A stretch of 5,413 nucleotides of DNA. Origin: Comamonadaceae bacterium (GTDB lineage: Bacteria > Pseudomonadota > Gammaproteobacteria > Burkholderiales > Burkholderiaceae). Where the stretch lies: the NCBI GenBank assembly GCA_947377705.1, contig CANCGU010000185.1, forward strand, positions 1 to 5,413. Reading direction: 5' to 3'. The stretch's first letter is position 1, and the number at the start of each line of letters is the position of its first letter. Shown piece by piece: positions 3,106 to 5,413 of the stretch. Made by a program: the position numbers and the translations under genes. The notes under the pieces are model-generated. The model did not search any database, was not told where the DNA came from, and worked only from the letters and a program-made list of their open reading frames with translations.

Positions 3106-3137
3106 ATTCGAATCGCCTTCGTGTCGTGAAAGAAGGT

Positions 3138-3231
3138 GACGGACCTTGACCCCAGCACTGGCTCCACAGTTAGGGCTGCTCGGTTCCCCGCCTGACCCAG
3201 TTGGCCGCTTCACCATGTGGGAAGGCCCGTC
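3138..3231 (-). ncRNA. ffs: 4.5S signal recognition particle RNA (small bacterial SRP RNA)
   Basis: On minus the sequence holds the SRP core GGTCAGG – CGG GGAA CCG – AGCAGCC, about 3195-3172. E. coli 4.5S has GGUCAGG – UCC GGAA GGA – AGCAGCC. The GGAA tetraloop and flanking asymmetric loop are kept while the stem pairs change together, as expected for a conserved RNA. This is the Ffh (SRP54) binding hairpin used in targeting inner-membrane proteins. The ends close in a 10-bp helix, GACGGGCCTT (3231-3222) with AAGGTCCGTC (3147-3138), including one G·U pair. The next bases, CCCA and TGGG, also pair. The 94-base length fits the small bacterial type. Exact mature ends are inferred. A promoter sits at the right distance upstream. 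No clear terminator follows, so the 3' end may be made by processing. Confidence 0.9.
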
Positions 3232-3357: not shown

Positions 3358-5202
3358 ATGTCCTACCTCGTGCTCGCCCGCAAGTACCGTCCTAAAACCT
3401 TCACGGAAATGGTGGGGCAAGAGCACGTCGTGCAGGCGCTGACCAACGCCCTGACCACCCAGCGTTTGCACCATGCTTATTTGTTCACGGGTACACGCGG
3501 CGTGGGCAAAACGACGGTGTCGCGCGTGCTGGCCAAATCGCTCAATTGCCAAGGCGTGGATGGCACGGGTGGCATTACCGCGAATCCGTGCGGTGTGTGC
3601 CAAGCGTGTACCGATATCGACGCCGGACGTTTTGTGGATTACACCGAGCTAGATGCCGCCTCGAACCGTGGGGTGGACGAAGTGCAAAGCTTGCTAGAGC
3701 AAGCCGTGTACAAACCCGTGCAAGGCCGCTTCAAAGTCTTCATGATTGACGAGGTGCATATGCTCACCAACACCGCGTTCAATGCGATGTTGAAGACGCT
3801 AGAAGAGCCACCCGAATATTTGAAATTTGTGCTCGCCACCACCGACCCGCAAAAAGTGCCGGTCACTGTGTTGTCGCGATGCTTGCAGTTCAACCTGCGG
3901 CCCATGGCGCCAGAAACCGTGTTGGAGCACTTGGGCCATGTGTTGGGCCAAGAAAACATCGTTTCTGAGCCACAAGCCTTGCGCCTGCTGGCCCGTGCAG
4001 CCCGCGGTTCGATGCGCGATGCCCTCAGTTTGACCGACCAAGCCATCGCCTACGGCGGTGGCCAATTGCAAGAAGCTGCCGTGCGCCAAATGCTGGGCAG
4101 TGCCGATCGCTCGCATGTTTTCCGTTTGATTGAGGCGCTGGCCCACAGCGATGGCAAATCAGTGGTGGAAACTTCTGAAGCCTTGCGCTTGAATGGCCTG
4201 AGTGCCGCCGCCACACTCGAAGACATGTCGATGGTCTTGCAACGCATGGCTGTGTTGCAAGCCGTGCCCGACATGGCCGAAGCAGACGCTTCAGACCCAG
4301 AAGCAGCCGAGATGGCGCGCTTGGCCGGTGTGATGCCGCCTGACGAAATCCAGCTGCTTTACAGCTTGAGTTTGCATGGTCGCCAAGAGCTGGGCTTGGC
4401 CCCAGACGAATATGCCGCGCTCACCATGGTGCTGCTGCGCTTGTTGGCGTTCAAGCCTCAGGCTTCGGCTGAAAAAAAAACTCTAATTAATCCTCAACGC
4501 GCAACTCCAGCGCCAGCAGCTGTTCAGCGGGTGACTCAACCACCTGCAGCACAAGTGCCGCCAGCGCCCGTTCAACTGGCTCCACCTGAGCCACAACCCG
4601 CCGCTACCGTACAAGCTTTGCCCGTGCGCGACATGCGGCCGCGTGAAGTTGCCCCTTGGGAAGACGACCCAAGCTACGATCCAGATGGCGCAGACAGCCC
4701 GAGCTACGACCACGACTCAGATGCCGCTGTGGTGGCCATGCCGGTGCGCCAACAAGCCGAGCCAAGTGCTGTGCTTGAGCCGCAAATACCCACCACCGAG
4801 GTGCCACAAATTGTGGCCACGCCCGACGGTGAGTTTTGGCACAAATTGGTGATGGACATGTCTGCCGCCGAAACCATCAACGCTTTGGTGCGCGAGTTGG
4901 GTTTGCAATCCCAGTTGGTGGCGCGTGACACCGACACATGGATGCTGCGTGTGGAGCGTGAGTCACTCAACAGCACCATGAGCCGTGAGCGTTTGCAAAC
5001 GGCATTGGCGACGGCCGGCTATCCCGTGCGCCTCACCGTTGAAGTGGGCCGCGTGCAAGACAGCCCCGCCAAGCGCAATGCCGCCGCCGCTGCACAGCGT
5101 CAAGCAGGAGCTGAGGCCATCATCCTCAACGACCCATATGTTCAAAGTTTGATGCGAGATTACGGCGCCAAAATCGTGCCGGGCAGCATCAAGCCGCTTT
5201 AA
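3358..5202 (+). CDS. dnaX: DNA polymerase III subunits tau/gamma (clamp loader ATPase DnaX)
   Basis: 614 residues, against 643 in E. coli. Tau/gamma is the motor of the clamp loader, which places the beta clamp on DNA and, through tau, ties the polymerase cores to the helicase. Visible in order: N-terminal YLVLARKYRP; Walker A GTRGVGKT (45-52); zinc cysteines C64, C78, C81, C84, with a spacer a few residues longer than in E. coli; Walker B with IDEVH (130-134); arginine-finger motif SRC (173-175); sensor 2 GSMRDAL (217-223). The domain III collar reaches about 368. A Pro/Ala-rich and acidic linker spans about 370-490, with a PSYD repeat at 438-441 and 448-451. The tau C-terminal alpha-binding domain is about 491-614. 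A nine-A run at codons 372-375 probably also yields gamma. An in-frame TAG at 3343-3345 makes ATG 3358 the only ATG start; no Shine-Dalgarno is seen. ybaB follows after 32 bases. Confidence 0.98.
   Translation: MSYLVLARKYRPKTFTEMVGQEHVVQALTNALTTQRLHHAYLFTGTRGVGKTTVSRVLAKSLNCQGVDGTGGITANPCGVCQACTDIDAGRFVDYTELDAASNRGVDEVQSLLEQAVYKPVQGRFKVFMIDEVHMLTNTAFNAMLKTLEEPPEYLKFVLATTDPQKVPVTVLSRCLQFNLRPMAPETVLEHLGHVLGQENIVSEPQALRLLARAARGSMRDALSLTDQAIAYGGGQLQEAAVRQMLGSADRSHVFRLIEALAHSDGKSVVETSEALRLNGLSAAATLEDMSMVLQRMAVLQAVPDMAEADASDPEAAEMARLAGVMPPDEIQLLYSLSLHGRQELGLAPDEYAALTMVLLRLLAFKPQASAEKKTLINPQRATPAPAAVQRVTQPPAAQVPPAPVQLAPPEPQPAATVQALPVRDMRPREVAPWEDDPSYDPDGADSPSYDHDSDAAVVAMPVRQQAEPSAVLEPQIPTTEVPQIVATPDGEFWHKLVMDMSAAETINALVRELGLQSQLVARDTDTWMLRVERESLNSTMSRERLQTALATAGYPVRLTVEVGRVQDSPAKRNAAAAAQRQAGAEAIILNDPYVQSLMRDYGAKIVPGSIKPL
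4459..4490 (+). promoter_or_regulatory. Probable programmed slippage/frameshift site giving DnaX gamma
   Basis: Nine A residues (4472-4480) cover the codons GAA AAA AAA ACT, with an in-frame A-AAA-AAA heptamer. One base back, the frame reads AAC TCT AAT then TAA (4488-4490), giving 377 residues. One base forward, it reads CTC then TAA (4484-4486), giving 375 residues. Either slip ends the protein just after domain III, close to a gamma subunit. E. coli uses -1 ribosomal frameshifting on A AAA AAG; Thermus thermophilus uses transcriptional slippage on an A9 run. The long pure A run and stops in both frames resemble the Thermus case. CAGGC-TTCG-GCTG (4459-4471) can form a short hairpin with a bulge and a C(UUCG)G tetraloop directly against the A run. 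The mechanism is inference. Confidence 0.75.
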
Positions 5203-5234: not shown

Positions 5235-5413
5235 ATGTTCAACAAAGGACAACTCTCGGGCCTCATGAAGCAAGCCCAAGCCATGCAAGAAAACCTCAAA
5301 AAAGCACAAGAAGAGCTGGCCTTCGTCGAAGTCACAGGCGAATCTGGCGCTGGTTTGGTCAAGGTCTTGATGACCTGCAAGCATGAGGTCAAACGCATCA
5401 CCATCGACCCCAG
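5235..5413 (+). CDS. ybaB: Nucleoid-associated protein YbaB/EbfC, N-terminal part, runs off the window
   Basis: Fifty-nine complete codons are visible, starting [20 protein letters not shown] and continuing with a helix rich in K, A, Q and E, then the strand region [14 protein letters not shown] and [10 protein letters not shown]. This is the characteristic start of the YbaB/EbfC family (full length about 105-110 residues), small DNA-binding dimers that coat the nucleoid. GGGAAGA (5224-5230), 4 bases before the ATG, is the ribosome binding site. The gap to the dnaX stop is 32 bases, AT-rich and without a hairpin, so both genes are probably on one transcript. In many proteobacteria recR comes next in this operon; it is outside the window. 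Confidence 0.95.

Follow-up and report, generated by a model that had tools for sequence, protein, structure and literature searches.

A conserved A9 run followed by stops in both alternative frames as a probable slippage site in dnaX of a Comamonadaceae clade

In Thermus thermophilus, dnaX carries an A9 run with stops in both alternative frames, and transcriptional slippage yields gamma and tau at a ratio of 1:1 (PMC5009743). In E. coli, slippage at the Thermus run likewise goes either way, and multiple insertions are the predominant outcome (PMC6260861). A sequence-only reading of the locus described here had named two precedents, E. coli (-1 ribosomal) and Thermus (A9, transcriptional), and the literature bears out both (PMC5009743, PMC1088944). 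In Recode-2, the dnaX genes of Neisseria, Salmonella and Vibrio are E. coli-type. GeneTack lists 17 two-ORF dnaX genes from 12 genera, and 12 of these genes, Chlorobium among them, contain 7 to 10 consecutive A's (PMC3711429). Of the Betaproteobacteria, Neisseria was the only one we found named in the literature searched, with the E. coli-type pattern (PMC3711429). The need for gamma beside tau was for a long time disputed even in E. coli, and a review speaks of "considerable controversy" (PMC5009743).

The dnaX locus and its predicted products

The window (the whole stretch of DNA analysed, 5,413 nt) comes from a Limnohabitans-like Comamonadaceae bacterium. Limnohabitans is among the named close protein matches of its DnaX, at 98% identity (P0004), and the nearest genome locus (L001, 98%) belongs to a Comamonadaceae MAG. 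Comparisons were made with two sets of genes. The first (n=86) comprises the window, the best 80 genome loci, which were chosen by protein similarity and not by A-run, and L082-L086 from an order-wide sample; L081 was left out as it repeats the L001 gene. The second was drawn from 100 family genomes, 95 of them with a match, from which 60 loci were fetched, mostly of lower identity or partial coverage. The 22 A9 genes of this second sample served as the holdout, with L217, L224, L235 and L238 counted as misses. The features of the window are as follows.

3135-3231, reverse strand: small SRP RNA (RF00169) upstream of dnaX, ordinary (Rfam scan)
3358-5202, forward strand: dnaX, a single ORF for tau, 614 aa (ORF list, Pfam, TIGR02397 dnaX_nterm at residues 3-362)
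DnaX residues 238-367, forward strand: PF12169, domain III (Pfam)
DnaX residues 492-610, forward strand: PF12170, the alpha-binding domain V of tau (Pfam)
3358-4490, forward strand: predicted coding region of gamma, 375-377 aa (reading of A8, A10 and A11 transcripts)
4472-4480, forward strand: putative A9 slippage run, GAA AAA AAA ACT (sequence; at least nine A's in 86/86 genes, and A9 in 22/26 clade members of the second sample)
4484-4486, forward strand: TAA stop in the +1 frame, which would serve A8 or A11 mRNA (sequence; same place in 78/86 genes)
4488-4490, forward strand: TAA stop in the -1 frame, which would serve A10 mRNA or a -1 ribosomal shift (sequence; same place in 50/86 genes, within 30 nt in 82/86)
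5235-5413, forward strand: start of ybaB/ebfC, the downstream neighbour, cut by the window end (PF02575)

The dnaX gene has 614 codons and 59% GC, and starts with ATG at 3358. Positions 4471-4490 read GAAAAAAAAACTCTAATTAA, and the codons from 372 onward are GAA AAA AAA ACT CTA ATT AAT. The nine A's at 4472-4480 are its sole A-run of seven or more. Direct reading thus confirms the earlier report of an A9 run in dnaX with TAA at 4484 in the +1 frame and at 4488 in the -1 frame, and the product lengths given there, 375 or 377 residues, were obtained again by reading the A8 and A10 transcripts. The predicted product of an A10 mRNA is 377 aa long and ends in EKKNSN (40,981 Da), that of an A8 mRNA is 375 aa long and ends in EKKL (40,778 Da), and that of an A11 mRNA is 376 aa long and ends in EKKKL; these predicted gamma forms of about 41 kDa compare with 66,561 Da for tau (614 aa). 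With residue 367 the last of domain III and residue 492 the first of the domain V match, the A9 site lies at the border of domain III and the linker, where the sequence-only reading had put it, and a shift either way would leave the clamp-loader domains only. The CTA codon after the run had been called rare; this holds clade-wide (1.6% of Leu codons), but CTA is not unique in the window gene, where it accounts for 4 of 66 Leu codons.

We propose that the A9 run is quite probably a programmed slippage site, at which Thermus-type transcriptional slippage would give gamma (375-377 aa) beside tau (614 aa). RNA polymerase would slip on the T9 template and produce a mixed mRNA population, in which A9 and A9+3n messages would encode tau, while A8, A10 and A11 messages would reach a stop within a few codons and encode gamma, consisting of the AAA+ domains and domain III and lacking the tau domain that binds polymerase alpha. 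We infer that slippage takes place at a useful frequency and mainly during transcription, and that gamma joins the clamp loader. The earlier suggestion of a likely gamma by slippage at A9 is supported by the comparisons that follow.

Conservation of the run and of its out-of-frame stops

A-runs were searched between codons 340 and 450 in the first 81 genes, where the longest run, which begins between gene positions 1105 and 1174, consists of ten A's in L041 and of nine in the other 80. Across the first set, every gene had a run of at least nine (85 A9, one A10); the A10 of L041 is in frame and apparently arose by substitution. The second sample of 60 contained 22 A9 genes, one A8 gene (L217) and 37 genes with neither. 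In a 97-gene DnaX tree, 26 of these 60 genes fell in the window clade (SH-aLRT 90, not starred), namely the 22 A9 genes, L217, and L224, L235 and L238, which are without A9; the other 34 lay outside the clade and had no run. The A9 gene L086 was also placed outside the clade in this tree, which leaves its position unsure, as well as whether A9 predates the clade. Five A9 genomes (2.2 to 6.6 Mb) each contained between 5 and 18 copies of the A9 9-mer, counting both strands and overlapping matches, and the dnaX copy was among them in 5/5.

Codon usage at the site differs from that elsewhere in the same genes. The 86 genes share 112 two-fold codon columns in which the residue is conserved, and of these only E372, K373, K374 and one Phe column were invariant. 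K373 and K374 are AAA in 86/86 genes each (172/172), compared with 42% AAA for other Lys codons, and both AAA and AAG occur in the remaining 11 conserved Lys columns; the Lys pair is likewise AAA AAA in 22/22 holdout genes. E372 is GAA in 81/81, a codon that makes up 43% of Glu codons elsewhere in these genes. The Lys pair is preceded by GAA in 81 genes, by CAA in 4 and by AAA in 1, and it is followed by a codon for Thr (ACN) in 75 and for Ser in 11. Ser is encoded by AGY at this position in 11/11 genes of the main set and 7/7 of the holdout, against a background of 36%. The residues therefore vary (E/Q/K before the pair, Thr/Ser after it) while the A's stay, which points to a constraint on nucleotides and not on amino acids. 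In a fixed-protein test, in which synonymous codons were resampled from each gene, A9 was expected in 7.0 of the 86 genes and observed in 86.

A further preference at the site concerns the Thr codon after the run (4480-4482 in the window), which is ACT in 64/75 genes and in 8% of other Thr codons. This preference is required neither by A9 nor by the stops.

The stops are conserved as well. A +1 stop lies within 30 nt of the Lys pair in 84/86 genes, compared with 26% at other positions in the same genes, and a -1 stop in 82/86, compared with 22%; both occur within 18 nt in 66/86 against a background of 2%. The exceptions, with a stop more than 30 nt away, are L049, L061, L076 and L083 for the -1 frame and L038 and L078 for the +1 frame, and no gene of the 86 is without both stops at once. 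In 78/86 genes, the codon that follows Thr/Ser supplies the +1 stop together with the first base of its neighbour, as happens at 17% of other Leu codons. Its makeup in these 78 genes is CTG-A (51), CTA-A (18), CTA-G (5), GTA-A (3) and TTA-A (1), and where the Leu codon is followed by G, the rare CTA is used in 5/5. That the +1 stop is kept through differing codons is as expected of selection on the stop.

With the protein fixed, and counting a +1 stop within 12 nt together with a -1 stop within 18 nt, both stops were expected in 10.8 of the 86 genes and observed in 65; in the holdout, they were expected in 1.7 and observed in 17 of 22. Taken singly, the -1 stop was expected in 18.5/86 and observed in 70, and the +1 stop was expected in 58.1/86 and observed in 81, an expectation high enough that part of the +1 signal resides in the residues. 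The sequence-only reading had named an alignment of related dnaX genes as the comparison on which it could fail; in that alignment, the run of nine or more and the out-of-frame stops were both kept.

Recoding sites in other dnaX genes

For the wider order, 110 loci were read among 192 genomes with a match, and 104 of them lie outside the clade (L087-L190). A run of at least eight A's after domain III was found in at least 12 of the 104 (L087, L100, L103, L106, L113, L119, L126, L130, L143, L155, L167 and L176), a lower bound because four of the loci have cut tails of less than 150 aa and others are cut before the gene end. The -1 stop starts 1-7 nt after the run in 11 of these 12 distant genes; in L167 it starts at 28 nt, and a +1 stop at 15 nt. 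The +1 stops of the 12 start 10 to 330 nt away. Such a pattern, an immediate -1 stop and a +1 stop that is frequently distant, would also be explained by a ribosomal -1 shift. L106, L113, L126 and L143 form one clade with CAA AAA AAA ACT followed by the -1 stop. On a 190-gene tree, the fewest state changes came to nine, which makes repeated gain likely, although tree error could lower the number.

In L119, L103 and L130, the A8/A9 is in another phase and adjoins the Phe-Asp-Gly with which domain V begins; the Phe-Asp codons of these three genes provide the -1 stop, a TGA.

Among 250 genes scanned, A_AAA_AAG occurred after domain III in L224, L188 and L011. L224, which is placed inside the A9 clade and has no A9, reads TC A_AAA_AAG CCTGA 35 nt after domain III. 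TGA lies 2 nt past its heptamer, an SD-like AGAGGAG precedes the heptamer by 15 nt, and there is a stem with a folding energy of -17.4 kcal/mol (z -2.0; 18/500 shuffles as low). This site looks like the E. coli arrangement and, as a single case, suggests that it may be gamma, and not A9 as such, that is kept by selection. In L235 and L238, neither an A-run nor A_AAA_AAG was found in the linker read. The A9 gene L011 has an additional A_AAA_AAG 305 nt after domain III, with a -1 stop 35 nt further on. The L188 heptamer, 92 nt beyond domain III, is preceded at 7 nt by AAGGAGG and followed 11 nt later by a -1 stop; this site, too, looks E. coli-type.

A different layout was seen in Sutterella-like genomes, where dnaX is split in L252-L255 and L263-L265 (five of which are the genes of L142, L183, L173, L156 and L101), which makes seven split genes among the family's 24 loci, of which one was too short to judge. 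Their zero frame stops 76-108 codons past domain III, and domain V continues in the +1 frame. Three of the split genes share CCT CCC TGG GGR GAR followed by GCC RGT TGA, and three have CGG GGA GAG TGA. These are candidates for a +1 frameshift or for reinitiation to make tau.

A tentative wider reading, which we hold with slightly less than even confidence, is that betaproteobacterial dnaX may have undergone repeated turnover of recoding mechanisms under steady selection for gamma. On this reading, transcriptional slippage at A9 would have become fixed through most of the Comamonadaceae clade and given way, in at least one lineage (L224), to a ribosomal cassette with A_AAA_AAG. Runs of A8-A10 would have arisen independently in roughly twelve other genes, those of a Thiobacter clade among them, and Sutterella-like genomes would add a split dnaX with domain V in the +1 frame. 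Selection on the run and both stops, recurrence elsewhere and apparent ribosomal replacement constitute comparative evidence that many bacteria need gamma, and Limnohabitans, Rhodoferax and Variovorax are easily grown genera in which that need could be tested.

Slippage, its alternatives and the described systems

Transcriptional slippage is favoured because the run is longer than the seven A's of a ribosomal heptamer and because SD words and downstream structure are lacking. An SD-like 5-mer was found upstream of the run in only 2/86 genes, and there was no consistent downstream stem-loop, with z below -2 in 3/86 genes (+3..+63) and 7/86 (+9..+54). In an Rfam search of the window, L001, L106, L217 and L224, no frameshift element matched up to E 1, and the small SRP RNA was the only match. 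Both-frame stops beside A9, as in Thermus, together with the two-way slipping of the Thermus run, lead us to rank transcriptional slippage above a ribosomal -1 contribution. Against slippage at the run as the best explanation stand the 34/60 family-sample genomes, outside the clade, that do without the site, the two clade members with no such run in the linker read (L235, L238), and a mean z of -0.45 for the downstream fold relative to shuffles, a little lower than in two control stretches (-0.07 and -0.17), the upstream value being -0.38.

Ribosomes that shift to the -1 frame on A_AAA_AAA (4473-4479) and terminate at TAA 4488 might instead make gamma at this site, although we regard this as unlikely. 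The heptamer is present in 86/86 genes, most have the nearby -1 stop (82/86 within 30 nt), and so do 11 of the 12 A-run genes found farther afield, where it begins 1-7 nt past the run, and the genomes nearest to the window, G001 and G002, have the UUU tRNA-Lys with no CUU tRNA-Lys found, a set that resembles that of E. coli. However, A_AAA_AAG, which is reported to be far more shift-prone in E. coli than A_AAA_AAA (PMC5009743), is used at the A9 site in 0/86 genes, SD-like words are scarce and no stem is consistent. The flanking A's (4472 and 4480) and the +1 stop would serve no purpose in such a shift, although the former persist in 86/86 genes and the latter in most. A constraint on the peptide E-K-K-T-L, with no recoding, would account for the presence of EKKT in 120/120 close homologues among the matches listed, the window protein included, but it is largely refuted by the synonymous tests and keeps very little probability: Lys is AAA in 172/172 codons, Glu is GAA in 81/81 and Ser is AGY alone, A9 and both stops are in excess with the protein fixed, and residue 372 varies among E, Q and K without loss of the run. 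Homopolymer runs can also act as curved DNA, as a transcription signal or as a mutable tract. That the run is kept for such a nucleic-acid role, with no gamma made, is highly improbable, as this would predict no paired out-of-frame stops, and run length is nine in 85/86 genes and ten, in frame, in the remaining one (L041).

In Thermus, slippage has been tied by a review to the presence of two lysine tRNAs (PMC5009743), a suggested correlate that this type of dnaX does not require. A first strict pattern applied to 45 genomes matched CUU tRNA-Lys in 2/24 A9 and 11/17 non-A9 genomes, and no tRNA-Lys of either kind in 9/24 of the former; a later pattern was applied to 35 genomes with an ARAGORN check. 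Using pattern search and ARAGORN, CUU tRNA-Lys was found in 14/26 A9 genomes and not in the other 12, which include the window-nearest G001 and G002. A loose anticodon-arm search of these 12 A9 genomes, the L224 genome and G245 returned UUU-Lys, Asn or Met arms in each and no convincing CUU. Outside the A9 clade, 16/17 family genomes had CUU tRNA-Lys (some by pattern only). As A9 occurs alongside one or two lysine tRNAs, their number is neutral between the mechanisms. Loss of the CUU tRNA-Lys is patchy within the A9 clade.

A9 slippage in dnaX belongs to a known class of mechanism, and for the proposed site comparative support is strong. Among the matches listed in the open-licence literature searched, we found no earlier report of an A9 dnaX site in Comamonadaceae, and such slippage appears undescribed for this group. 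Caulobacter also makes a shorter DnaX form, by proteolysis of tau and not by frameshifting (PMC5009743). The two-ORF genes from GeneTack share poly-A slippage in dnaX with the site proposed here from sequence (PMC3711429), but recoding is needed there for tau, whereas tau of the window is the zero-frame product. The -1 ribosomal frameshift of E. coli dnaX follows the same product logic at a similar place, about two-thirds through the gene (PMC5009743), and a stop just downstream in the -1 frame (TAA 4488-4490 in the window) is shared with the E. coli type. Unlike E. coli, with its A_AAA_AAG, SD and stem-loop, the A9 set is without AAG, has no SD in 84/86 genes and no consistent stem, and has stops in both frames. 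As in Thermus thermophilus, the A9 lies in a single tau ORF with both non-zero-frame stops close by, and gamma is the truncated product, here as a prediction from sequence (PMC5009743, PMC1088944). Thermus has two tRNA-Lys (PMC5009743) and A9-clade genomes one or two, and while the Thermus run lies seven-eighths through the gene (PMC1088944), that of the window lies 61% through, right after domain III.
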